The position numbers and the translations under genes were made by a program. Below the pieces are notes generated by a model. The model was not told the DNA's origin. It searched no databases and worked only from the letters and a program-made list of their open reading frames with translations. A stretch of DNA of 64,000 nt from Loxodes magnus (taxonomy: Eukaryota; Ciliophora; Karyorelictea; Loxodida; Loxodidae): NCBI GenBank assembly GCA_946699065.1, contig CAMPDV010000092.1, forward strand, positions 682,001 through 746,000, read 5' to 3'. Of the stretch, positions 11,063 through 63,358 are shown piece by piece. Within the stretch, counting starts at the first letter, position 1, and every line of letters starts with the position of its first letter.

Positions 11063-14000
11063 TCAAGGCATAAATTGTTATTGGTTCTACTATTATTAAA
11101 ATATATTTATCTTTGGTAGAAGTTTATAATTTGTTCTAACTTAGATCATTGCTTATAATAACTACTTTGTTGTTACTAAAGATAGAACATTCATATTTAA
11201 AGGCGTTTAACATTAAAAGCAAGCTAAATCTTAATCAGTATACTTTTGCATCTATAAATTACCATCCACTTATTAATGAAGGCAATCCTAGCAGCACTAA
11301 GATTAGCAGCAGTTAAGTTTAATGAAAAGACTTTAGTGTTTATTTTATTAGCATTAGTTACATAAAGCTAAACCGTCTTGAGGATTCATTTAAGCAATGA
11401 CATAATTTTTTTTCATTTAATCTAAATAGGCAAATTCTTAACATAAATAACAATCTATATAAAAATCTTACAACCTTCTATTATTCAGTTAAGGAAGCAT
11501 TCATTACATTTCTAAGAATTACAGCTGCAATTCGTTTATTTCATCTCCTCTATTTTCCTATTACTTTAACAAGAAGGGCATATGATTCTTTAAGCTTTGT
11601 CTTTTGCTTAATCAAACCTCCACTCAAATTTAGATTCTTTAGGTGGGTCGCAAAGTGAACCTTTTTTTACACAAGCCTAGCATTTATTATCATATTATAT
11701 GCCAGCAGTACTTGCACTATAATAATCACAATCAGATCTATGATAATAATTTCCATGTATCATTGAAGGCTACCTGAAACAAGAGCAGCAGAATTATCAT
11801 TCTACTTAACAGTTGAAACATGTAACATGTTCGCATTTTTCGTCTTTTGTCATCCAATTGCTACATCCTGGACATTTTCTAATATCCATTCCATTATTAT
11901 GAGCTTCTTGAAGTGCTTCTAGTAAGTTACACATTCCGATATGTGGAATTTTGAAGCAAGTGCAACAAAATTGAAACTAACATTATGGACAAGTTGCTGT
12001 TTTAATATCTTCAGCTATCATCTTATATCCACATTTATTCGGATTTGGACATTAAATCATGCCTTTTATACAATTCATTCTTCATAAATTTACTTTATCT
12101 ATACTCTCTTTACTTAGATGTGCTTCAATTATTTAAAAATTTATAATTTTTGGATCTCATGATACTTTTTCAATAGGTACACTACAAGTCGGACATATCA
12201 GATCTTCTGTTTTATATTTACCTTAATTTACTAATGCTTCAAGCCAATTTGTCAAACAATCATGACATGTTATATGTTCACAATCTAATGTGGAAGCTTT
12301 TGCGTCCCTATCTAGATCCAAACCACAAACAGTGCAATTGAAATTTCTTTTTGCTTATGCTTTTTTATCCTCTTCTTAAATTTAGGCAATCAGCTTTAGA
12401 GTTTCTTATTCATTTTAAATTTAACCTTACAGTTGATTTTAGGGTAATTATTGAGGGGAATTATAGGAAAATTAATTTGAATAATTGAACTAAGCAGGAT
12501 TTTACTAGAGATATCCTTAATTATTTCCAAGATTTAAGTTTTAAAGGTTCCCAGCTTGATATTAACCAATAGTATCATTTAATTATAAGCCAGTTATTTG
12601 ATTTACATACTAACTGTCGAATTTTACTTAACAGAATAAACAATTGAAGCTGAAAGATAAGGTGAAGTGATTAATTAAGCATTCTTTACAAATTTGTTTT
12701 TGGCAGCAATTTAGTTTTATAATAGGCTTATCAATTTATGATTTGCTGCACTAGCTGCATCTTGAAATATTTTGGAATATTCTATTAATATCATTTTAGT
12801 TGAAAAGACAACGACATCCTACACATAAGCACGTGTAATTATTATATTTAATTCTGTTTTATAGAAGCGTTTGTGTACAAGAAGGATGGAATTTATGTCC
12901 ACAATTTATTAATATCATTTACTCTTACATAGACTAATTCATTGACTTACAACTAGAAAAATCACAGGACTTATATAGCTTATTATAGATAACTTTGGTT
13001 TATTCATCTAGTTTTACATAGCATATTCTACAGGAATCTAAATTATAAACTTACATTACTAAGGATCAATTACCTATTTCATACACTTATAGCAAATTTA
13101 ATGGCATTTCATGCCTGATTTTTCAGATATTTCTAAGGGTTACTAGCAGCTATAACAAACGAAAGTCTAAGTTTAGGGGATATTATACAAGCTGGATGCT
13201 GCCATATCTTTATTTTTTTGTCTAATTTCGTTGATTTTATATTGATCTATTGATTATAAAACTTTCTGTGATGTTATAGTTCATTAGCACATAGGACATT
13301 ATGCTTATTTTCCAAAAATTTAGTTATTTGTCTAATCCAAAATATATTAAGTCAAGCAAGCGTTGTGATAAATATGCTTACAGTCTAGAACTACTTTTTT
13401 CTAGCTTTTCTTACTGCAAGCTTAGCAAGGATATTCATCTAAGTTACTTCCAACATCTATCACCTTAATTTCAAAAGGAAACTGATAATTTTAGCTATTT
13501 CCAAATTGCAGTTCTGCTAGTTATTAGACCTTGGTCTAATCTCTACTTTTGTAAGCTTAATTTTCTTAATTTTCTAAGCTTTGCCTTAAAGTTTTGTTCT
13601 CATTAAATAAATTAAAAAAATCTTCTTTGAAGTTCTTTTCACTTTAAGAGATGTCCTTTTAAGAGACTTATATGCTAAAATATGATGACTGAAGTTTAAT
13701 AATTTCTTAAGTAAAAGAACTCGTAGATTCATATAGCTTCCTGATTCTTAAGGCAAACAGTTCCACTAACTTATTAAGGTTTTTTATTAATAATTTAGTT
13801 TTATCTTATCTTTTGGTGTATATAGGAAATCCAACAAATTATGGCCATTGATCTTATGGTTGAAAGCTAAAACTCTTTATTTAAGGAGGTAACTGAGGTA
13901 TTAGTTATAGATATCCCTTTGAGGTTAATCCATCTAATCTAGTATGTTCTCTGGTATAGAGCACGCAGTAATATTGCTAATTTTAGCCTTAGTCAGCATA

Positions 14001-14654
14001 ATCAAGTATACATATTAGAGGAACTGGATTTTCACTTTCTTAAGACTGATAAAGAGCTACTTCATTATTCTAGTCGCTTTCTACCACTACTTTTATTTAC
14101 AAAGACTTATCAAGTGCTGAAGCAATATCCTAGAGAACGTTTTTATCTATCTAATTCTTTGAAAGCTCATTAATGATTTTCTAATCATTCCATGATTTAG
14201 TAGAATCGAAATAGAAGGCTATGACATACTTAAGAGCCATAGAAATCTAATTATTTAACATTTTGCTTCAAAACTTTTCAGCCTCGCAAATTTAGCCTCT
14301 CAAGGTCGCTAATTACTGAATACTTTAATTGAATTCCTAATAAACTGCAAAAGAATTCTAACTCATTTTCTAGAATCCAAGCTATTGGTTTTAAACTTTG
14401 GTCACGAAGTCATTTAGTTATTAATAAGGAGTGGATTACCTAATAAGGTGCTAGAGAAATGCAAGTCCAACTGCGTTTAAAAAAGAGTCTTGCATTTGAC
14501 AAGGGAAATACATATCATACACTCAGGCCTTATCATCCAAATAGTTAATAAATTACTTCTCTTCCAGCTTTTCAAAGCTAATTCTATTAGACTTTCATTG
14601 CTAATTTGAATTAAAATTGTTAAAGTTAATTGGTTAAGGTCCAAGAAAGGCCAT
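11063..14654 (-). CDS. otubain-like / RBR ubiquitin ligase fusion, copy A
   Basis: Three exons (14654-13055, 13037-11472, 11454-11063) give about 1185 residues, from ATG to a TGA after QQQFMP. Residues about 40-240 follow the otubain (peptidase C65) fold in order: DSFLNAVGLAFLQHL, the helical insert, ALKYVIAFY, IASALDKSLQIKVVVES and ICILDY...VLYTREHT. The catalytic Cys position is Ser and the His position is not His, so it should be an inactive deubiquitinase fold. Several Cys/His modules follow, including GHKFHPSC. Then come RING1 (CTVCGLDLD...CPTC, about residue 767), an IBR (CPNPNKCGYKM...CCTC) and RING2 (CPGCSNWMTKDEKCEH, about 920) with the RBR catalytic Cys in DEKC. RBR enzymes pass ubiquitin from an E2 through that Cys to a substrate. 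Additional CxxC modules form the C-terminus. TGA encodes Trp at SWDPK, LWRMN and VEWQF. Copies B and C are paralogues. Confidence 0.92.
11455..11471 (-). other. 17-nt intron, copy A second intron
   Basis: GTAAGATTTTTATATAG on the minus strand. Removing it joins ...FLNWIIEG to the CYLC zinc module in frame. Paralogues B and C have a 16-nt intron at the corresponding place. Confidence 0.85.
13038..13054 (-). other. 17-nt intron, copy A first intron
   Basis: GTAAGTTTATAATTTAG on the minus strand, inserted just before the CRICYVKLDEQ module. Its removal restores the frame that aligns with copies B and C, which carry introns at the same site. Confidence 0.9.
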
Positions 14655-19354: not shown

Positions 19355-19829
19355 TAACAAATTTTATAAGAAATCTTTCCAGTAAACATTCTTTCCAATT
19401 CTGTTAAAACCTATATTATGTTGCCCGAAACTAATAAACTTGATAGTAAAAGGCCTATAAATAAAAAAGCATAGATAACCTTAATTGAATTCTAAAGCCT
19501 TATGATTAATAATGTAAGCTTAAAGAAATTATCAAGAAATGTAGTGAAGATTAACTTAAATATTTACTATAAAATAGATTCTTAAAATCACTGAAAGTAA
19601 AATTAGGTTCAAAGTTTCATCTGTATTAAAGAAAATAATAATAGATTTATTAATAAAGCTAATAATTGGTATCTTTATAAAGTATCTTAAACTTAATTAT
19701 TTTTTAATTTTTGTTGCTTATTATGCATTTCTTATTTTACTGCTTAAAATCGTCAATAAGCACTTGCTTCCAAATTTATAAAATGGTAAACTAAAATTAG
19801 AATCTTTCTAGTATTTAATTATATTAAGA

Positions 19830-22620
19830 TCAAGGAGTTTAGTTTCAAAAAGTTTAACAAACTAGAGGAGTAAGCTTCGATAAGTATTTAGAAAACTAAC
19901 TTGCTTTCAACTAAATGATAAAGCTTAAATATATTATATGTATTTTCCTCTAAATGTGAAAAACTCTTTTTTTGATTCTGTTGGGGTTGCCTTTTACAGC
20001 ATTTTATCAGACCTTCTACTGAACTTACAATGGCTAAACATTTTTAAACTTCGTAGAATAGAAAATCATGGTTTTTAAATGATGCTTTAGAATTCACCTC
20101 AATCCTACTAAATCTTCTGGTAAAGCATTAAGGATTTACTATAATTGAGAAATGAACCATTGAAAAGTGAAAACTTAATTGAAAAAATGCTTAATAACAA
20201 CATTATTGCTCTAGCTCTCAAATACGTGGTAGCTTACTATTTAGAAATCAATAAAAAAATGAAGTGGCCAAGAATAGAACTAAACTTTATAAAAGAACAT
20301 TAATATGTCTCAGTCTGGAAAGTTATTAAATGACTAGTCTAAACTCTTTAATTTGGTATAATCATAATAAAATATCAATTCCTTTAATACTTCATTTTAT
20401 TATGAAATTACAGATATCATAGGAGAAGGAACATAATATGATGCTTAGAAATGCTTATCTTGCAATAAGAAGTTAGCATCAAAGATATAACTTGAATGCA
20501 AGCATCTATTTCATAAATCTTGTCTTACATAATCTATTATGCAATAAACTGATAACTAAATTATAGGAAAACCTGCTTTTTGTCCCAAATGTAAGGAAGC
20601 AAAATAATTTTATAAACTGAATTAAGAAATAATATTAAACACAGTAGGTAAAAAGAAGTTCTAAGAGGCTAAAATCAGATAAGAAGAAATGGCTAAAAAA
20701 ATATTAGATGAAATACCTATAGAACAAGAGTTTTAGTGTGCTACTTGCTTATAAACGAAACAATTATCCGATAAATCAAGTATGAGATGCCATAGTTGCT
20801 GTATTAAATGCATGAGTAAGGTAATAAATCCATAAACCTGTAAGTTTTTATTTTAGTTTAATGTAGTTAATGCTGGAAACCTTTAGATGAAGAAACTTTC
20901 TAGATTTATAAGAAACTATATATTTGCTGCTAATTTTCCAATTGTAAATTAATGAATAAATAAGTATATGAGCAAACAGTAACACTAACAAGATGTGGAC
21001 ATAAGTTTCATCCTTCATGCATATCAGTTTTATTAGAAAATAGAATAAGACTTAATAACTATTAATGCTTACGCATTGGTTGCAATCATCAGATATAATA
21101 GTAAGATGTTTAACTAATTTAACAACTCTAGATGAGATGTAATTAATGCAGCAGAACATAATTCGAGGGTGCTTAAATAACTAAACTAATATGTTGCTAA
21201 AATTAAATATGTAAGGAATGCTTATTACATAATTTTGCATAATAAAACTAAATTAAATGTAAGTTCTGCTAATTTAATCTTAATTCTAACTATGTACACT
21301 AAATAACAGGAATTAATTTCTAACAGATTTAATAAATAATCCCAAATTAATAGTAATTATAACTAGGAAATTAAGGAATATAAAGTTAACCTTTTTAAAA
21401 CTAATCAAACATTAATGCTTCAACTTCAATTTAATAACTTATAAAAACCTAATAAGTAAAAGAAAGATCAAAATTTTAATGTCCTGTTTGTGGAGAATTA
21501 TTAGATTTAGAAGATAAATGCTGTACCTTAAATTGTAATGATAAAGTATGTCATTAATGCTTAACAGAGTGGTTAAAAAATTTAATTGATTCAAGCAAAT
21601 ATAGATTTGAAGATTTAATTTGCCCTAAGTGCTCTGAACCACTTGAAAAAGATCCTTACAATCCAAATGTCCCTGATTTCAATATTATTCAATCACATTT
21701 AAATAAAGATCAAGTCGAAAAAATAGAGAAATGAAGAATGGGAAATTTAAAAGGAATGATTCAATGCCCTAATCCAAATGGATGCTAATGTAGAATGATG
21801 GCTGAAGATTAAAAAAATGCTAAATGCTTATTGTGTAAATTTGAATTTTGCTGTACTTGCTTCAAAAAACCTCATTAAGGAATGTGCAATTTAGAAGAAG
21901 CTCTATTAGAAGCTCACAACAATGGTATGGATATAAGAAAATGTCCAGGATGCTAAAACTGGATGGCTAAAGATTAGAATTGCATGCATATTACTTTTTT
22001 TAATTGCCATAAAGAATGGTAATTTTGCTGTTCAGTTCTTAGAGAACCAACTATGATGCATTCTAATTTTTATCATAGAATTGATTGCAATTTCTATAGT
22101 GCAAATAATGCAGGGTTAAAGTTTGAATAAAAATGTCAAGCTTGCTAGCAAAAAGGTTCATTATGTGATCCTCCTTAAGGTTCAAAATTTGATTGAAGAT
22201 TCGATCAGTGTGAAATGAATATTTTAACAAAGTTTGTACTTCTTGCTAAAGTAATAGAAACGAAAACTAATATCATAAAACCAACTACAAGCGCAATATG
22301 AAATATGTGAAGATTGTTTTTTAAATACAATTATAGAAAATAGTTAGTTATTATACAGAATTTATTATTTGTGATAGTTATGCATTCAAAGATATTACGC
22401 TAAGAAATAAATAGTATGCTTTAAAGAATCCAAACGAATCTTAGCAAACATGTGCTAAATGCAATACACCTAAAAACTAAGTTTTATGTCTTTATTTAAA
22501 TTGTTGTGATGATTGATATTATTAAAACTGCTTCCACGAGGTAGTAGAAAGCAATTTTTAATAGCAAAAATTTTCGGAATAAGAAAATATCTGATGAACA
22601 TTTACAAACTTAAAATAAAG
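19830..22620 (+). pseudogene. decaying otubain-like / RBR ligase, copy C
   Basis: Homologous to copies A and B along its whole length but broken. The otubain-like N-terminus (NDKA...MYFPL...NSFFDSVGVAF, ALKYVVAYYLE) is spread over at least three frames between 19840 and 20300, including a shortened T-run near 20000. From an ATG at 20305 one frame is intact through the zinc modules, RING1 (CPVCGELLD), IBR and RING2 to about 22210, then shifts frame twice before the C-terminal CxxC modules. In RING2 the catalytic Cys (KDQNCMH) survives, but the next zinc ligand is Phe (HITFF instead of HVTCF). The 17-nt intron at 20840-20856 and a 16-nt candidate at 22343-22358 match those of the intact copies. 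A shortened protein of about 660 residues from 20305 could still be made, but the lost ligand and frameshifts point to decay. Confidence 0.85.
20840..20856 (+). other. 17-nt intron, copy C
   Basis: GTAAGTTTTTATTTTAG. Removing it joins INPQT to FQCSQCWKPLDEE in frame, at the site shared with copies A and B. Confidence 0.9.
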
Positions 22621-24383
22621 AGATAATTTCTTAAATTATAAATATTAATTATTTTTAAAAGATGGATATTGAAGCTAAATATTTTTTCAAATCCTAATTT
22701 AAGCATTTTTCATTTAATATTTTTTATAAAATACACTAATTTACGAATAGATAATGAGTAATCTAATAAATTAGATGTGAAAAAGCTCTTTATTATAAAG
22801 AGCTGCGCACCAACGAGGCGCTGCACGCTCTATAATCAAATTTTTTTAATTTTATATAGTTCTATGCCAATGTTTAATCTTGTTAGCTAGTAAATTGGAA
22901 CATTCTTCTTACTAATGACTAAAAATATTACAATAATAGACCTTCTTCAAATCTACTCTTACATTTTTTAAATTTGCGTCTTCATTTCAACATAACATCA
23001 TAAGCATTAAATCGCTTTACTAATTTCAAACTGAAATCTAAGCAAGCTATTATTTTATTTTTTTCTTATTGCAAAGCACAAATTTAAGCTTTTTCTAAGA
23101 AATACTTAAACTTTTAAAATCCACACTTGAAATAGGTTTGCCTATCTTCTATTCTATCTAATGTTTAAAGTCCCTATAAGTTTAAATTATTTCAATTATT
23201 ACCTTTAATAATTAATTTTATTTAGCATCCTTGAATTTTCATTGAGTTTACAATTATATAGTTAGAAAAATTTCCTATGAAAGCATGAAAAATCAAAGTT
23301 GATTATCCTTAATTTAATTGAATTATCTTCCAGTTAAGAAATTATCTAGTTAATTGTGTATCCTTAAATACAATAAGCATTACCTTATATAATAATATAA
23401 TATTTAGAAGCCAAACTTAAAAATTTATTTTACATAGAGAAAAATCTTTCTTTTAATTATTACAATAGCTTGCTTTATTTTAAGATAGTACAATGTCATC
23501 AATTTTATAACTTCCACTATAAGTAAACACATACTTAGTATATTGTAAAGTATATGACTAGGATATTTACAAGCATTAATCTTGTCATTAGAGATATTTA
23601 TTTTAATTTTATAAGTCTGCATTATAATCAACATTACATTTCCTAAAGTTTATCTCTTAATTTAGATGCATTAATAAGGAAATTTTTTATAAAATTTAGG
23701 GATCTGTAATAAAACATGAGAATATAGGAACAATCACTTTAAATTATAATCTAAGTAACTTACCCTTTGAAGAGAATTAAGGTAGTTTATATGTTCAAAG
23801 TATGAAGAGTTTAAATTTCTAGCTTTAGTTAATCTAATCCATGTTCTACTTATTTATAGAAGCCAATATACTCTAGGCAATTATCTTTCAAGCTGAATGC
23901 CCCATTTAAATTAGAAACTAAGGTGAATAATCCAATTTACATCATATTTTTAAGAATTTAATCAAGTTATAAATCTAAAAGTATAGAAAGGTAAAGTTTG
24001 ATTATATTTAGTCTAATCCAAATAAAGTAAGAAGCTAAACTTTAAAATGATAGCCAAGCATTTTAATGATGATAATTAAAAGTAAACTCCTTATTTAATA
24101 TAAAAGTAGCCAACATTTAAAATGCTAAAGTTATTAAAACTCATAAGCTAAAGCTAAAATTCTCAATGAGTAAATTAGTAACCTTCCTGCTTATTTTCAA
24201 TTAAGCAGTTAAAGAAATCTCAATACTTATCTTTAAGCGCTTATATCTACATAAATTTGTCCTAGAAGCACAAGAGGAAATTTAAATGATTAAAGAGCGC
24301 AAAGAAATAACGATAATAAAAGGAATTTGAGTGTAATATAAAAGATACTTATAGCTTAAATTACATTATAACTTATAACTAAT
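22621..24383. other. AT-rich intergenic stretch containing a GC-rich structured island
   Basis: Mostly AT-rich with no supported gene. The exception is a short GC-rich block at 22787-22832, annotated separately. Minus-strand open frames near 23425-23634 are hydrophobic, low in Gly/Asp/Glu and not distinguishable from chance. Confidence 0.45.
22787..22832 (+). ncRNA. possible structured RNA or hairpin element
   Basis: A compact GC-rich island in very AT-rich DNA. It starts with a perfect 8-bp stem (AGCTCTTT / AAAGAGCT around a 5-base loop). Next comes GCGC...GCGC around ACCAACGAG, and outer GAGC / GCTC arms that could form an alternative stem. It is not a tRNA by eye, and I recognise no RNA family. 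It could also be an element terminus or a regulatory hairpin. Confidence 0.35.
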
Positions 24384-48471: not shown

Positions 48472-51400
48472 ATGAGATTCTTTATAGATTTAGCAAAGAT
48501 TCTTTTCTAATTCTTATGCTTTTTCTCAATAATTTAGATATCATGTTCTTGGTCTTATGTTACTATACCAAATACTGGAGTTTATTACTAAGACAAAAGC
48601 TTTAGTTAATCATATACGTGAAGTAATTATGGAGTTAATCCTGCTGTGGATAATCCAGGAAAGTTAAGTTATACTGTATGAATTTATCCAACTGATTGCT
48701 CTAACTAAAATATAGCTTATATTTTTTCATTTAAAGATTGCTGTACAAGATGGTAAGCATGATATATCAAAATTTCTGCTAATACAATTACTTAATTTGG
48801 ACTAACAGGTGATGCTGGAACAGACACTTTAGGCATTAACATTCCTTGTGGATAATGAACATTTTTTGCAAGTACTTTAACAACGTTATGGCTATTAAAA
48901 AATGCTGCATTTAAAGAATTAAGACTTTGTGCTGGAGATTTAAGTAGCCTATCATGTGGAGTCTATTTAAGTACATAAAAAATGACAGTATCTAGTGGAG
49001 ATAATTTATATTTAGGATATTATAGTTCGAGTGCTTCTAATTTTTAAGGATATGTTTTATAGCAAAGGTATTACAAAAGTGATGCAAATATGGATTAGTC
49101 AGATTATTAAAATATTATTAATTCTGATGCCCCTTGTCAAACTCACTTTTTAACGTGTTATGCATGTACAACATCAGCAGTATGTGACTCATTATGTGAA
49201 TCAATTTAATACTATAAAACATCCGATTCCAAATGTTATTAGTGTTCAAGTGCTATTTCTTAATGTAATCAATGTGCAGAAAATGCCATACAAGTAGTAA
49301 CCTGTAGTGCATGCAATAATCCATATAAATTAACATTGGGAACTTGCTAAAGTAACTGCGACGTTACTTAATAAGACTCAGACAGTAATAGAATTTGTTT
49401 AAATTGTAACTTAGTTTTAAGTAATTGCTAATAATGTAATGAAGCTGGGAGTTAATGTACTCTATGCGATTCAAACTTTTATATTGGTGGAGATAATTAA
49501 TGTCATCCTTGTACAGACTTCGATACTTAATGTGTTGCTTGCTCTATTTCAGGATGCACTTCATGTAATAACCCTTTAAAATCAACAATTGGTATTTGCT
49601 AAAACAATTGTGATAATACTCAGTAGGATAGTAACTCAGATAGAATTTGTTAGAATTGTAACTTAGTTCTATCTAACTGTTAGGAGTGTAATGAGGCAGG
49701 TACATAGTGTACTCTATGTGACAATGGATATTATATAGGTGGAGATAATCTTTGCTACTCTTGTACCATTATAGATGCTTAGTGTTCTTCTTGTGCAAAT
49801 GGAATAACTTGTGATGGATGTAACAATCCATTTAAACTTACATTGAATACTTGCTAAAGTAATTGCGATTCTACTTAATAAGACTCAGACAGTAATAAAA
49901 TTTGTTTAAATTGTAATTTAGTTTTAAGTAATTGCTAATAATGTAATGAAGCTGGTAGTTAATGTACTCTATGCGATTCAAACTTTTATATTGGTGGAGA
50001 TAATTAATGTCATCCTTGTACAGACTTCGATGCTTAATGTGTTGCTTGCTCTATTTCAGGATGCACTTCATGTAATAACCCTTTAAAATCAACAATTGGT
50101 ATTTGCTAAAACAATTGTGATACTACTCAGTAGGATAGTAACTCAGATAGAATTTGTTAGAATTGTAACTTAGTTCTATCTAACTGTTAGGAGTGTAATG
50201 AGATAGGTACATAGTGTACTCTATGTGACAATGGATATTATATAGGTGGAGATAATCTTTGCTACTCTTGTACTATTATAGATGCTTAGTGTTCTTCTTG
50301 TGCAAATGGAATAACTTGTGATGGATGTAACAATCCATATAAACTTACATTGAATACTTGCTAAAGTAATTGCGATATAACTTAATAAGACTCAGACAGT
50401 AATAGAATTTGCTTAAATTGTAACTTAGTTTTAAGTAACTGTTTAACATGTAATGGAGCTGGAAACTAGTGCTCATTATGCGATAATGGATTCTATATCC
50501 ATGCTGATTAAAAATGCCACTAATGCTCTGAAAGTATACCTTTTTGCTAATTTTGTTCTCAAGATGGGTCCACTTGCTTAAGTTGCCTTTTCCCTTAGGT
50601 TTTAGATAATAATTAATGCCTGAACTAATGTTCTTCATCCAAATAAGATAGTAACTCTGATAGAATATGCTAAATTTGCAGCTTAGCTTTACCTAACTGT
50701 TTATAGTGCAACCATTAAGGAAATGCATGCACATAATGTGATTCTGGCTACTACATAGATTAAGCTTAACATTGTTCATTTTGCTATAATTAAATTTAAG
50801 GATGTTAGTCTTGCGACTAACCAGGTTAAGTTTGCTATTCATGCTTAAATCCTAAAAAGCTAGTTTATAATTCCTGTGTTGATGATTGCCCAGCTACTCA
50901 TTATGATGATGGAAGCAGAATTTGCAATTTTTGTTAAAATTCAATTAATAACTGTATTGAGTGTAATGAGTTAGGTACTATTTGTACTCTCTGCTAATCA
51001 GGTTATTACATTAATAATTTGAACCTATGTTCTCCTTGCAGTACTTCTATACCTAATTGTAACACCTGTGATCAATAAGGAATTTACTGTAACTCTTGCA
51101 ATTTTCCTTATAAACTAAGCTTTAATTAATGTGTAGCATAATGTCCTACCATCTAGTTTGACGATGGAAGTAGAGTTTGCTAGTCTTGCTAGGTAATTCT
51201 TAATAATTGTATTTAATGCAGCTAAACAGGAGACGCTTGCACTTCATGCGTAAATGGATATTTCGTAAACTAAAATGATTTAAAATGCCATGAATGTAAA
51301 GAAAGCATTTCCTTCTGTAGCTAATGTTCTTAAGATGGTGCTACTTGTCAATTTTGTGATTTTCCTAAAAAATTGACTAATAATAAGTGCTAAGATAGAT

Positions 51401-54125
51401 GTGATACTAACTAACAGGATAAAGATTAGGATTTCATATGCTAACCATGTAACATCGAATTAGCACATTGTGAGACATGTAATCAAGAAGGAAATAAATG
51501 TTCAAAGTGTGAAGATATGTGGTTTGTTAATAGCTAATAAACATGCTCTCAATGTTCTCAATCAATAGAGTTTTGCCAATTTTGTTCGTAGAATGGAGAA
51601 ATCTGCTTTATGTGTGAATATCCTAAAGTCTTAACTAACAATACTTGCTAAGAGATTTGCATTCCCACATAACAAGATAATGATGGCAATGGTATTTGCA
51701 CTGAATGTGAAGATAAATTAGAGCATTGCATATAGTGTAATCACTAGGGTACTGAATGCATATAATGTGATGAAGGTTATTTTATAAACGATTAGCATTA
51801 ATGTGAATAATGCTCTAACAAACTTTAGTTTTGTGATAGATGCTCTTAAAGTGGAAAAGAATGCTATAAATGTAAAGATAATAAGAAGCTAACAGAGTAT
51901 AAATGTGCAGATAATTGTACTATTTATTAGTAAGACTATAACAATGATTTAGTATGTGAAGCTTGTAATTTAGTAATAGATTACTGCTTCTTTTGTAATG
52001 ATAAGGGTTAATGTCTCTTATGTGATGATAATCATTACTTAAGTACTAACGGCTTTTGCTTAGATTAGTGTCTAGATATTGAGTAAGATAGTGACTTTGA
52101 CTAGATATGCAAACTTTGTAATATTGTACTTCCAAACTGTTTGAGATGTGACAAATAGGGAAAATAGTGCCTGTAATGTGAGAAAGGATTCTTTAACTCC
52201 TAGACTGGTTGTGAGAAGTGTGAAGTCTCAGATTGCATAAAATGTGACTCAGATCCAAGTATATGCGATTAATGTGCTAATAACTTTTTACTTTATGAGA
52301 ATTCCTGTGTTGGATCCTGTGACTTAATAATAGAAAATTGCTTGACCTGCGATTAAACTTTTAACTGTATAGAATGTGCAAAAGGTACGTATCTAGGTGA
52401 AGATAAGCTATGTCATAACTGTTCTGAAGTAGAAGAAAATTGTGATCTCTGTGATAAAAATACTTGCTTCAGTTGTAAAAATTAGTACAAATTATACAAT
52501 CAAGAGTGTGTTAGTTTTTGTCCTAATACAACAGTAGAAAACGATACTTAATGCATAGAATGCAATTAATTAATTGCTAACTGTAAATATTGTAATGAAA
52601 GTGGACTTCAGTGTATTTAATGCTAAGACAGCTTTATCTTAAGTAATAATAAATGCTAATTAAATAGTTTATCTATTAAATACACTTAAACATGGGAGCA
52701 AGCTTTTATAGAATCTCCAAGTGTATAAGAATTAAACTTAACATAAGCTTAAGAAAAAGTGCTCATTTTAACGGAGGGAACTTAAGCCACTTTGAAAACT
52801 TCATCTTATATATTCGTAGCAGGCTCATGCTTACAAGGAGGTATTTTCGATATGAGTTTTTTTTGAATGACTTAATATATTGATGAGCTAATCTCAATAA
52901 CAGGCTTAATGAACGTTAGACTACCACAAATATTACAAGGGTACTATTTAGTTTAGTTCGATCCTATAGAAGCAATGCTTAAATATATGGGCATAAATCT
53001 AAATTCCTAAAATCCAAGCCAACAAAAGATCATTTACAACATTGCTTTATAAGGAATCTAATCTACATCTTTTTTAGCAAACTCATTACAATTTTTCTGA
53101 AACTTAGTAATTTTATTCACTACTTTCTGCTTATTAAACATAATTAAAGCTTTTAAAAAATAAGTTGTAGAATATCTTAAAAAGGTCTATTCAAAGATAA
53201 AATGGTCTGGAATCATTAGAAACATACTTAACTATTACCTCACTATCTTAATAGCTGTTTTTTTATAGATTAGCAGCGTTGACATTGACGATTCCTACGT
53301 TTTTGCCAATCTGGTTTTATCTTATTTTGCACTTGTAAGTTTTTACTTTAGATGATTTTAACTGGAGTTTTGATTTTTATATGTGTGAAGATATTTATCT
53401 ACCACAAGTTCTAGCATAAAATATAAGACGAACAGAATTTAGAGAAAGATATAGAGCTGTTTGAAAACCAGTTCGGAGTTCTGGTTGACGAGCTAAAGAA
53501 TAAAGACATACTATGAGTCTGTTTATTTTATCCTATTTTTATAGTTAGAAGGATAATCATAGCAGGTATAATTGTGTTTTTATAAGAGTATCCTAAAATA
53601 CAAATAATAGGGTGTGGTCTACTTAGCATTTTTTAAGTTTTCTATTTGTTGCTATTCAATCCATTAAAAATGAATTAGATGTTTGGTCTATACGTAGCAG
53701 GAGAAGTGTGAGTTCTAATGATGTTCTGGTAAAACTTGCTGTATATTAATGGTGATGAAGAGCATTTTGAAAACTGAGCCCTTTTTGTAGTGATAGGTTC
53801 TTATGTTTTAATAATAACAATTTAAGCAGTAGCATGGGGAAATGCTATTAAATAAGGTATTTAAAAGTGTAAAGCTTGAAGACAAACTTAAACATAGTAG
53901 CAGAATGAAAAAGAATAAGGTTCTAATTTGAATGATTAGAAAGAAGTAAGCATCAACTTACCAAATAACAACGAATAATTGCAGAATAACGCCTAATTTA
54001 CTTTCTTTTAAAATGAAGAATCAGCAGATGCAAGCAGAGTCTTCAATTATGTAAGTCAAAGCGAAACACTAAGAGAGTTAAGTTTTTCTAGAAGAGACTA
54101 AGTCGAGCCTCTGAAAGATATTTGA
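48472..54125 (+). CDS. giant cysteine-rich surface protein with LamG-like head and multi-pass C-terminus
   Basis: Two exons (48472-53334 and 53352-54125) give 1878 residues. The start MRFFIDLAKILFQFLCFFS is a signal peptide; an in-frame ATG at 48451 is an alternative. Residues about 30-220 resemble a LamG/jelly-roll domain (YTVWIYPTDC, DNLYLGYYSSS). About 230-1400 is a long array of furin-like cysteine repeats of the form CxxC...C..C (NCQQCNEAGSQCTLCD). Within it a 507-bp unit is repeated in tandem. The last 400 residues contain several hydrophobic helices and a Gln/Asn-rich cytoplasmic tail. TGA is Trp at GEVWVLMMFW, ENWALF and CKAWRQ, and the gene ends at TGA 54123-54125. This architecture is common among ciliate surface proteins and receptors; ligand and role are unknown. 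Confidence 0.92.
49321..50334 (+). repeat. two tandem 507-bp repeats inside the surface-protein gene
   Basis: The unit at 49321-49827 is repeated almost unchanged at 49828-50334 and keeps frame (169 residues each). Each unit holds pairs of cysteine modules with CTLCDSNFYIGGDNQCHPC and CTLCDNGYYIGGDNLCYSC. A third, partly matching unit starts at 50335 and then diverges. The near-identity points to recent tandem duplication or gene conversion. Confidence 0.95.
53335..53351 (+). other. 17-nt intron in the surface-protein gene
   Basis: GTAAGTTTTTACTTTAG. Removal joins VLSYFAL to MILTGVLIFICV within the membrane region and keeps the frame open to the end of the gene. Confidence 0.92.
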
Positions 54126-59219: not shown

Positions 59220-59912
59220 ATGCTGGGAGTATTATAGAATAATCAGGCTTAGCATTTAATTATGGATAGAAGTTTATTAACCAATAACTAGCAAGAAATT
59301 AGAGTTCAAAACATCAATTTTTAGGGGTATATAGTAGCTGAATTCTAGTATTATTATTATGCTAATACCTTAATTTTGCTTTTTTCTCTACTACTTATTA
59401 GATATTCTAAAGTTAAAAGAGAGATTAAAGCTAAAATGAGTTTATTTATAACTTAAGTTAGAAAAATAGAATTAAGATTGAATTATATAATTAACCTTTT
59501 TCATACGATCATTGGTATTTCTATCTAGAATTAAATGAAATATATTTCAGGCTTAATTTATCCTGACGATTTATCTACTCATTCTCTAAAGTCAAATTTC
59601 AGTTTTATTCCCAAACGTAAAATGAGAAAAGCTATTAATTTATACTTCTTAGCATTACCTAGCTTCCCATTACAATTTAAACTTATTTTTCCCTTTAAAT
59701 TGAATAGCTCATATATAGCTTTATGTTCATAATTTAACTTATTTCTATTACCTTACCTAACATTTAAAGTATCGTAGATTGATATCTAAACAAATTCTAA
59801 GAAAACTGCTTTGACAAGAAAAAATAGATATATTTAAAAATTTATTTTGAATTTTAAGTTTATTTTATAATTTACTTTAAGTTCTCTCAGAAACTCTCAA
59901 TTATAAAAATGA
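59220..59912 (+). CDS. possible small membrane protein
   Basis: ATG 59220 opens 230 codons with no TGA until 59910-59912, which overlaps the ATG of RBR copy B as ATGA. It has one clear hydrophobic helix (ANTLILLFSLLLIRY) followed by a basic segment, then GLIYPDDLSTHSLKS and another basic region. The C-terminal third is AT-driven and may be 3' flank. No family is recognised. Confidence 0.3.
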
Positions 59913-62900
59913 GCAATTGGTTTTAATAAAATTAACCTCCTTTGAGTAACTAATACACTCAACCCCAATAAACGACTAGAAGGCTTAACTTTGATACTCT
60001 AATTTAGAACTAAATTTACAATAATCTTTATGACAAAGCTTGGATTTATGACATGTACTTACCTTTTAAAATGAACAATTCCTTTTTCACTGCTTTTGGA
60101 GTCGCGTTTTTATAGCACCTTCTTAGACCTTCAACTGCATTTAATGAACTTGGGAAATTTATAAGTCTCTTTAGCAATTAATAGAAAGGCCTGAGTCAAA
60201 TGTAAAACTGCTTTTAGTAGCTCTATATTGAATTCTTTCAATTTATTTAGACTTTAGCATAAATGAGGAAAAGAACTATTGATAGTGATAATCTAATCTT
60301 TAGTTTATTAGATAAATACCCAGAATTGATTTCCATTACCTTTAAATACTTAGCAGCTTATCAATTAGATTAAGTTTATCATTGAGATCCAAACTAAATT
60401 GTGAAAGTGATGTAGTAATAGCAAACTGACTTATAGACTATTAATCATATTATATAGGCTCTTAGTGAGGTCCTCTAGGTCTAAGTAGTTCGTGAAACTG
60501 ACTAAAGCTAGGGTGTTGCAATAAATCAGTATTAAGAAGGAACTGAAGCTTTTCCACTTATTTGCCTTTTAGATTACTAAAGTCAAAACTTCTGAAGTGT
60601 TTTATATACTAGAGAACATACTAGACTAGATGGCTTAACTCCTTAAGGCTAATTTTCCCCTGAATATATGTACCCACCAAACATAAAAAGTGCGCTTTTC
60701 TAACCTTAAGAAAAATGGGCTTTTCTAATAGGTTTCCCAATTTACATGAAAAAATAGGAAAATTTTGCTGAACTAAGCAGAAATTAGAGTAAAATAATTG
60801 AGTTATTATCATATAGGCTAAAAAAATGTTACAGCTCTATGAATATTTCAGTACAGGAACTAGTAAAGGAAATGAAACAGTTTGCTAATATCTATATTGA
60901 GTTTAGGAATCAAGACTAATCATTCATCAATAATGAAAACACTTTTACCAAAGAGCTTATTTAGCTAGCGATTGAGAATAAATAGCTATAGACTAATGTA
61001 GGAATGACTCAGTCATACTAAATTAATTCTACTGATTAGTTGCCTAATCTTAACTAGCTATGCTAGATTTAGTAAGGAAACGAACATCATACATTGTTCC
61101 CTATGGAGATCTAACTTATTGGAGTTGGAAGTTCACTAGATCCTTACGTTTGTTCAACATGTAATAAAAAGCAGCAAATTAAAATAGAGCTAAACTGTAA
61201 GCATAGGTATCATAAGGCTTGCTTAACTTAGTCCATCCTTGAGTAAAATAAATAGTAGAGTGGAAGTTAAAATAGTTGCCCTAAATGCTTATAGGAAAAA
61301 AACTAAACTACACTGTTAACAGACTAGTAGTTGCAGACAATATTTGGCTAAAATTATAGTAAGATGTAGCAACCATAGATGAGAATCTCAGTTTATAAGT
61401 ATTCTAATCAAGAATTTTAGTGTTTTTAGTGTAAAAAAACTAAATAAAACTATGATAAATCTCACATGTCTTGTCATGATATTTGTCTAGACTGTTTAGG
61501 ACAAGTAGCTAACATCTAAAGATGTAAGTCATTAATATAGCTTAATGTAGCATATGTGGAGCTTCCTTGAATGAATAGACAGTTAAAGCATATGAAAAGT
61601 TATTTATATGTTGCCATTTTTCAAATTGTAAGCATACTAAAAATGATAGACCAGAAGAAATGATTGCTCTCTCAATCTGTGGCCATAAGTTTCATCCTTC
61701 ATGCGTATAAATTCCAATACAAAACAGAATTAATTCTAATAACCGCAAGTGCTTACGAATCAACTGCTAATAGCAAATTTATGAAGGAGACATTTAAAAG
61801 ATCAATTAGCTATCAACAAAGTGCTGTAGTTGTAATAAAATAGGATCGGAACTATAGATCATTTAGCTAAATTGCTGCTAAAAAAAGATATGCAGAGACT
61901 GTTTAGCAGGTAATCTAAGTTAAAACTAAGGCATTTGCTTTATCTGCTAGCAAAATTATGATCAGTAGTAAGTAACTTAGATTTCTTAAATTTAAAATTA
62001 AGTTAGCAAAGAGTCTACCTAATAAGTTGGATAGCTGAATACTGAAAATCAATAAAATCAACCATAATCCTAAAATATAGACAAGAAAAGCTAAGATCTT
62101 ATCAATCAAACGACGATAAACTAAAGACCTAAATTTATCTGTACAGTTTGTGGAGAAAAGCTTGATGTTGAAGAATACTGTTGCACTCTGAACTGTAGTC
62201 ATTAAATATGTCATGAGGATTTAACTAGATGGCTTACTAGCTTACTAGATTAAAACAAATTTAAAACTGAAGATATAATTTGTCCAACATGTAGTGAGCC
62301 TTTAGAAAAAATACCTTGAGATACAAAACAGACAGACTTCAACATAATTAAAGCTCATTTAAGTATGGAGCAGCTAGAAATAATGGAAAAATGGAGAATA
62401 GAAAGCATAAAAGGAATCATAACATGTCCAAATCCAAATAAATGTAATTATAAAATGGTAGCAGAAGATATCTAAAATATTAAATGCCCTATATGTACTT
62501 ATGTATTCTGCAGTATTTGCTTTAAATAAAAGCATGATTATGACTGTAATCTGGAGTAAGGATTAGAAATCGCTAAAAGCGCTGGTATGGATATTAGAAA
62601 ATGTCCAAATTGCGAAAGTTGGATGACTAAAGATGAGAATTGCGAGCACGTTAATTGCATAAAATGTGGAGTGGAATGGTCGTTTTGCTGCTCTGTTCTA
62701 AGATAACCCACGAAGATTCATTCTAATTTTTACCATAGAACAGATTGTAATCACTACAGTGCATAAAATAACGATTTAAAATTTGATGAAAGGTGTTAAG
62801 CTTGTGTAAAAATAGGAACTCTTTGCACCCCTCCTTAAGGATCAAAGTTCAATTGAAGGTATGATAAAACTGGACAAAATATTAAATTTAAAATATGTCC

Positions 62901-63358
62901 TGGATGCTAATCTAATAGAAAGGAAGAAGAACTCACATTGTCATACTGCAAATGTAACATCTTGAAGTGTTAAGAATGCTATTTAAACTTAATTTAAAAT
63001 GGAAGTAAGTTATAATACAGCATGCTTGCAATGTAATAGTCCAGCTTTTAAAAACTAAATGACTCATAATATTATTTATGCTAAAAATAATCCAAATGAA
63101 AGATAGGAAACATGTGCCAAATGTGATTAATCAAAGCATCACAAACTGTTTATTTACCTTATATGTTGCAAGAAACTATTTTGCTAGGATTGCATTTGCC
63201 AGCTAGTAAATGAAAAGTTTGAAAAGCAAGAATTTTCATAGTAATCACTTTAGTGTTTTAAGTGCTAATAACCACTTGATTTGAGAATAATAAAATAAGT
63301 AGTGACTAAGGAACTATATGATAAAATGACTGAATGGAGAAAGTATAATTAGCGATGA
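59909..63358 (+). CDS. otubain-like / RBR ubiquitin ligase fusion, copy B
   Basis: Three exons (59909-61523, 61541-63004, 63021-63358) give 1138 residues. Residues about 45-250 follow the otubain fold: NSFFTAFGVAFLQHLLRPS, TFKYLAAYQLD, IIQALSEVLQVQVVRETD and PLICLLDY...WSVLYTREHT. The catalytic Cys is Ser and the His is missing, so no deubiquitinase activity is expected. A RING-like module (CSTCNKK...CKHRYHKACL) and further zinc modules (CGHKFHPSC, CCSCNKIG) follow. Then RING1 (CTVCGEKLD, about 738), IBR (CPNPNKCNYKM, CSICF) and RING2 (CPNCESWMTKDENCEHV, about 893) with the catalytic Cys in DENC. C-terminal CxxC modules end at TGA 63356-63358. TGA is Trp at IPWDT. Same architecture and intron sites as copy A; this is the best-preserved copy with A. 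Ubiquitin-ligase activity is predicted from the RBR family. Confidence 0.93.
61524..61540 (+). other. 17-nt intron, copy B first intron
   Basis: GTAAGTCATTAATATAG. Removal joins VANIQR to SQCSICGASLNEQ, at the site shared with copies A and C. Confidence 0.92.
63005..63020 (+). other. 16-nt intron, copy B second intron
   Basis: GTAAGTTATAATACAG, one base shorter than the rest. Removal joins LIQNG to TCLQCNSPAF; copy C has GTTAGTTATTATACAG at the equivalent site. Confidence 0.88.

Follow-up and report, generated by a model that had tools for sequence, protein, structure and literature searches.

A predicted RBR ubiquitin ligase with a remote, apparently dead otubain domain in the ciliate Loxodes magnus

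Most known deubiquitinases and ubiquitin ligases are separate proteins. A20/TNFAIP3 is a single chain that combines an OTU domain, though not one of the otubain type, with ligase activity, for which A20-type zinc fingers and not an RBR are responsible. The Drosophila OTU proteins Otu and CG3251 have, to our knowledge, no RBR. They are homologues of OTUD4 in which the catalytic Cys has naturally been replaced by Ser, activity has been lost and the gene has been duplicated, the Asp and His being retained in CG3251 (PMC4654579; here and below, statements on cited papers refer to the parts of their texts consulted). OTULIN, which according to the consulted part of PMC10803509 is not an otubain, works beside the RBR ligase HOIP in LUBAC, but as a separate and active protein of the complex (PMC3690481). 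In Agaricomycete fungi (mushrooms), a deubiquitinase of the VTD class is fused to an RBR ligase, and most genomes encode a single such protein (PMC9741609). We analysed a 64,000-nucleotide stretch of Loxodes magnus DNA (the window; contig CAMPDV010000092.1, positions 682,001 to 746,000), in which a gene, here called P1, very probably encodes a ubiquitin ligase of the RBR type whose N-terminal otubain is catalytically dead and has been kept as a non-catalytic part, as judged from sequence alone. Like the mushroom protein, P1 brings a deubiquitinase-class domain and an RBR into one chain; VTD, however, is another, fungal class (PMC9741609), whereas the N-terminus of P1 is an otubain by profile. 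The initial annotation of this DNA knew of no described otubain-RBR fusion: none is named in the titles and abstract openings of the literature searched (preprints outside its scope, few subscription papers), and the published mushroom fusion, of another deubiquitinase class, narrows the claim. The otubain-RBR family, its size and the coexistence of dead and intact-motif versions look new.

P1 lies on the minus strand, and its reading frame requires genetic code 27, the karyorelict code (TAA and TAG as Gln, TGA as Trp or stop), and two introns of 17 nucleotides. The start and stop codons had been placed correctly in the initial annotation. No in-frame ATG was found in the 248 codons scanned upstream of the start. 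In L. magnus the modal intron length is 17 bp and UGA serves both as Trp and as stop (PMC11441545). TGA occurs in P1 or in its paralogue P2 at ten aligned positions. At five of these both proteins have Trp, TGA in one gene facing TGG in the other; at one, both genes have TGA, and at the remaining four the TGA stands opposite another residue. This alignment supports the reading of TGA as Trp. The features of P1 are as follows.

11063..14654, minus strand: P1, whole gene, 1185 amino acids in three exons, colinear with P2
14654-13055, 13037-11472 and 11454-11063, minus strand: the three exons, the last including the stop codon
14654 and 11065-11063, minus strand: ATG start and final TGA
13038..13054, minus strand: predicted intron 1, 17 nucleotides, GTAAG...TAG, from frame and signals; P2 has a 17-nucleotide candidate at the same place
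11455..11471, minus strand: predicted intron 2, 17 nucleotides, GTAAG...TAG; P2 has a 16-nucleotide candidate at the same place
13935..14567, minus strand: pseudo-otubain domain, residues 30-240, from the eleven-otubain profile and alignment
14484..14486, minus strand: Ser57 (TCT), in the position of the catalytic Cys of otubains
13455..13934, minus strand: linker, residues 241-400
12568..13454, minus strand: RING and RING-like zinc fingers, residues 401-690, spanning intron 1 and preceding the RBR; Pfam zf-RING_2 32 bits (cut-off 27.3)
11728..12345, minus strand: RBR (RING1-BRcat-Rcat), residues 765-970
11833..11835, minus strand: Cys935 (TGC), the Rcat catalytic Cys, codon checked

With otubains (OTUB1, OTUB2 and PDB 6k9n) the P1 N-terminus shares the order of the elements, the catalytic helix 'C/SF..A.G...L..L', the final 'VLY/ILY' strand and a profile homology that holds in both directions. 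A profile was built from eleven otubains, namely eight of the same genome with the motifs GDGNC and GHYD together with OTUB1, OTUB2 and 6k9n, the pseudo-otubain copies being excluded. With filters off, it matched all 20 pseudo-otubains read in the genome, with 32.1 bits for P1 and 36.4 bits for P2, compared with maxima of 9.7 and 13.3 bits over 3000 shuffles of each and 8.2 bits for the next unrelated sequence among 882 decoys from the window. In the reverse test, a pseudo-otubain profile with filters off matched 11/11 otubains, the best scorers being those of contigs C29 (67.9 bits) and C47 (64.8 bits) and the lowest OTUB1 (10.1 bits); C103 and the five loci tested of the canonical L001-L008 were among its matches. 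P2 alone as a query found otubain places scored by Pfam, on contigs C708 (Ser type, E=3.1e-6), C103 (5e-5) and C29 (2.4e-4). A smaller profile of OTUB1, OTUB2 and 6k9n gave 16.7 bits for P2 (0/3000 shuffles as high), which held ranks 1-2 among the 882 decoys, and 6.8 bits for P1 (7/3000). Alignment of a P1/P2 profile to OTUB1/2 by hhalign scored 21.2 with a nominal P of 0.029, 7 of 1000 column shuffles reaching at least 21.1, and the catalytic helix alone was aligned. The otubain-like N-terminus proposed in the initial annotation is thus borne out as homology by the eleven-otubain profile, and by these profiles the predicted domain is a real but remote otubain by descent.

In the alignment to OTUB1, Cys91 corresponds to Ser57 of P1, His265 to Tyr228 and Asp267 to Cys230, so that the triad required for otubain catalysis is lost in the predicted P1 protein. 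The pseudo-otubain further differs from otubains by a shorter catalytic loop, by a gap at Asp88 and by its junction to RING fingers and an RBR. The nucleophile column is Ser in all 19 copies of the family that have it (L041 lacks the column), in agreement with the annotated change of the catalytic Cys to Ser. The annotated absence of the His applies to P1 and not to the whole family, as three of 19 copies (L042, L044 and L046) retain it; Asp267 is found in 0/19 (both counted by eye).

A six-frame search of the window revealed two further copies on the plus strand, P2 and P3, which had been missed in the initial annotation.

59909-63358, plus strand: P2, intact paralogue, 1138 amino acids, with P1-like architecture
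59975-60763, plus strand: P2 pseudo-otubain match
60080-60082, plus strand: P2 Ser58
62125-62760, plus strand: P2 RBR
62641-62643, plus strand: P2 catalytic Cys906
19783..22600, plus strand: P3, third copy, approximate ends, the otubain half being broken and the RBR half, at 21465-22100, still readable

P1 and P2 are colinear, linker included, with the candidate introns at the same two places (17 and 16 nucleotides in P2). Between them the proportions of differing silent sites (pS) and protein-changing sites (pN) were 0.741 and 0.378 for the otubain part and 0.672 and 0.278 for the RBR. Since the silent sites are near saturation and the protein-changing sites are not, the dead otubain domain is old and constrained at the protein level. 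In P3, the otubain half (19783-20366) shows several frame changes without a fitting intron signal and part of it is missing, while the RBR half reads through. A short similar translated stretch was seen by eye after P3 (~22800-22860) and after a canonical otubain on contig C493 (L059); it is perhaps an interspersed repeat.

The C-terminal half of P1 was recognized in Pfam as IBR with 34.4 bits (cut-off 24.3) and zf-RING_2 with 27.6 bits (27.3), IBR_1 remaining at 25.3 bits, below its cut-off of 27. A profile of the three RBR copies gave weak PDB matches to parkin (E=0.00073) and RNF31 (HOIP; E=0.0012), the catalytic Cys falling on the GGC of parkin. With the zinc-ligand columns chosen on P1 itself, following the usual RBR pattern, P1 has 24/24 ligands and the catalytic Cys935. 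The IBR score, the ligands and Cys935 confirm the annotated RING1-IBR-RING2 ending with a kept catalytic Cys. Across the family this Cys is present in all 22 copies having the column (L052 is cut), and the BRcat ligands are complete in 20/22. The likeness to parkin and HOIP is that of a RING1-BRcat-Rcat module with its catalytic Cys; the family differs from both by the loss of one Rcat zinc ligand in 21 of 22 copies, by the N-terminal otubain and by additional RINGs before the RBR.

The genome containing the window (705,730,643 bases) was then searched. P2 as a query gave 44 matches (77/77 candidates scored), from which we took the 19 that spanned 75% or more of the query, together with P3 and three partial matches; the other 21 were shorter. 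Longer downstream DNA was then retrieved for the three partial matches and for 17 of the 19, P1 and P2 being the exceptions. In 20/20 copies an RBR lies on the same strand, 1071-1449 bases downstream of the otubain-like domain, and the three partial places likewise carry pieces of an RBR. Near-copies (L039/L040, L048/L050 and L056-L058) reduce the set to ~18 distinct genes, and the otubain domain is near-full in 18/20 copies. That pseudo-otubain and RBR belong to one gene, as annotated for P1, is upheld by this pairing and by the constraint on both parts between P1 and P2. Scans of viral contigs and a phage search returned no relatives. Outside the window, at C92:357572-361246, twelve tandem matches to the RING1 part were observed on one strand with a spacing of ~309 bases.

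Several results weigh against the reading of P1 as a dead otubain joined to an RBR ligase. P1 alone had no Pfam otubain match at E<=10, nor had a hand-typed P1/P2/P3 consensus any in Pfam. Peptidase_C65, the family named in the initial annotation, was the top Pfam match of P2 (E=0.0062, 16.5 bits), below the gathering cut-off of 24.3, a score reached by neither P1 nor P2. Against PDB, no otubain was matched by P1 alone with phmmer or by the P1/P2 profile at E<=10. P1 ranked just fifth among the 882 decoys with the three-otubain profile, and with default filters the pseudo-otubain profile had no match in L001-L008, C29, C47 or C103. Two AlphaFold2 models (two sequences each) had mean predicted local distance difference test (pLDDT) values of 32.1 and 39.7, with low-confidence helices followed by three strands. 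On the RBR side, one of the Cys zinc ligands of Rcat is retained in P1 only, being replaced by Val in 20 and by Ala in one of the 22 copies, and the eight ligands of RING1 are complete in 9/18 copies with the columns (8/17 excluding P1). Two RBRs of this family, at C77:181420 and C395:210025, had no otubain match in the 2.7-2.8 kb upstream. Large ubiquitin families of code-27 ciliates can escape standard profiles at default cut-offs, as P1 does.

We also investigated the other otubains and RBRs of the genome. The Pfam otubain profile found at least 150 places (150 of 474 candidates scored, 150/150 above the cut-off), often clustered, for example on contigs C37, C91, C493 and C89; the same profile had matches in 0/14 control genomes. 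The P1 RBR as a query gave at least 156 matches (150 of 432 candidates scored). By eye, four contigs were common to the two sets among the matches listed, namely C29, C47, C317 and C214, and on each of them an otubain with GDGNC and GHYD stands 1.7-2.6 kb before an RBR on the same strand, with the Rcat Cys kept. Otubain and RBR share one frame in C29 and C47, and in C317 except for the middle RBR piece; in C214 there are frame changes within the RBR. Short introns would explain the frame changes in C317 and C214. C29 and C47 align lengthwise, C47 having more zinc-finger repeats, with a pS of 0.678 and a pN of 0.209 for the otubain part and of 0.835 and 0.447 for the linker, in one frame. The same genome thus holds four predicted otubain-RBR genes whose otubain retains the triad motifs. 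Such natural pairs of dead and intact-motif otubains in the same ligase type make it possible to ask what role a deubiquitinase fold plays for an RBR, whether or not it is catalytic.

A second otubain class with DGNS in place of DGNC was found at L033 (C708), L032 (C264) and L034 (C335), C708 having 'KPVRFDLIY' in place of GHYD. On C171 (L072; 555700-560400) an otubain with DGNS, lacking the His in the corresponding position, lies in the frame of an RBR match, of which the middle was not readable by eye as BRcat in that frame. On C606 an RBR is present with no otubain match in the 4 kb upstream, and the canonical otubain loci L001-L008 had no RBR match within 1.5 kb. Otubains without an RBR match were read downstream by eye: those of C493 and C91 are followed by one RING-like domain, that of C103 by two and that of C708 by several RING-like repeats.

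Our best reading is that the dead otubain of P1 would be a retained non-catalytic binding module that steers the ligase. In RBR enzymes the RING recruits E2~Ub and the Rcat Cys accepts the ubiquitin, then passes it on (PMC3940038). In P1, RING1 would recruit E2~Ub and Cys935 would take the ubiquitin, while the otubain would select or position ubiquitin, a ubiquitinated partner or the RBR itself. Ubiquitin as the binding partner is tentative, and we hold it somewhat short of an even bet. The Drosophila OTUs with a natural Cys-to-Ser change have no activity and, in the consulted part of that study, ubiquitin-chain binding by CG3251 was not significant (PMC4654579), so that ubiquitin binding by the dead otubain is not to be assumed. 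The initial annotation had looked to OTUB1, which blocks E2 enzymes without catalysis (PMC10803509). An OTUB1-like built-in blocker, holding E2~Ub and restraining the ligase, could also draw on PDB 4ddg and 4i6l, in which the Cys is likewise replaced by Ser, but a mutant used for crystallization is no proof of function. OTUB1 engages the E2 by an N-terminal helix of ~45 residues, described in the part consulted as absent from OTUB2, and D88A disrupts E2 binding (PMC10803509), whereas only 56 residues precede the Ser in P1 and 57 in P2, compared with 90 before the Cys of OTUB1, and both have a gap at the Asp88 column. The short N-terminal stretch and the missing Asp88 make an E2 block of this type quite unlikely, and this suggestion was not sustained.

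A retained module has also to be weighed against a decaying, functionless relic, with selection acting on the RBR only. P3, in which the otubain half is broken but the RBR can be read, would suit a relic, as would the RBRs at C77:181420 and C395:210025 and a further family RBR at C120, whose upstream otubain is broken. However, the near-full domain in 18/20 copies, the loop before the Ser and the extension 'YT.E.TRLDGL' directly before the linker, which by eye resembles 'YS.DQS.VDGF' of otubains of the same genome, all persist, and the pS and pN of the otubain part between P1 and P2 make a relic without constraint unlikely. Two neighbouring genes in place of one chain are very unlikely: frames under code 27 never stop, and an open frame alone is weak proof of a fusion, but the strand and the 1071-1449 base spacing are constant in 20/20 copies, P1 and P2 are colinear through the linker, and the linker of C29 and C47 has a pN below its pS in one frame. 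It is hardly credible, finally, that the Ser makes the domain a serine-type deubiquitinase. Its presence in 19/19 copies, and the fact that changes outside the clade (C708, C264, C335 and C171) are likewise to Ser, would speak for it, yet the His is kept in only 3/19 copies and Asp267 in none, and the natural Cys-to-Ser OTUs of Drosophila lack activity; the His and Asp losses speak against a serine protease.

A tree was calculated from 31 otubain domains, with 16/20 pseudo copies entered (two broken copies and two near-copies were left out). The 16 form one clade with a support of 100/100, and the four intact-motif fusions form another together with C171 (89/96), whose branch is long and whose grouping with C29 has a support of 96/78. 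On this tree the loss of Cys and His in C171, again to Ser, is separate from that in the main pseudo clade and is a second such loss among the RBR fusions. The recurrent otubain Cys to Ser loss parallels that of the insect OTUD4-class proteins (PMC4654579). A tree with all fused otubains together was not rejected (approximately unbiased (AU) test, p=0.479), and of the eleven otubains C29 and C47 are the best scorers with the pseudo-otubain profile. The middle zinc fingers of P1/P2, used as a profile, matched none of C29, C47 and C317 and so do not link the dead to the intact-motif fusions, which may or may not go back to a single event. The architecture would have begun as a ligase with a built-in deubiquitinase, or would share a parent with one, and in the large clade the eraser would have been switched off but retained for docking without catalysis. 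Writing and erasing of the same ubiquitin tag may thus at one time have been done by a single protein. More speculatively, and in our opinion rather doubtful as a whole, this ciliate lineage would have evolved a writer-plus-eraser, an RBR able to edit its own product through a functional otubain (C29, C47, C317 and C214), and would have lost the eraser at least twice among RBR fusions, each time to Ser, the editor becoming a reader that steers the ligase. Deubiquitinase folds would then be interchangeable recognition heads of ligases in a lineage-specific ubiquitin toolbox. This idea draws on the at least 150 otubain places and on the RING-like fingers seen by eye behind 4/4 of the non-RBR otubains read.

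Elsewhere in the window, at 48859-52866 on the plus strand, a frame of 1335 residues is open under table 6. Its Pfam matches are weak only, with LSM just under the cut-off and a Giardia VSP match at E=0.0016, also below the cut-off.

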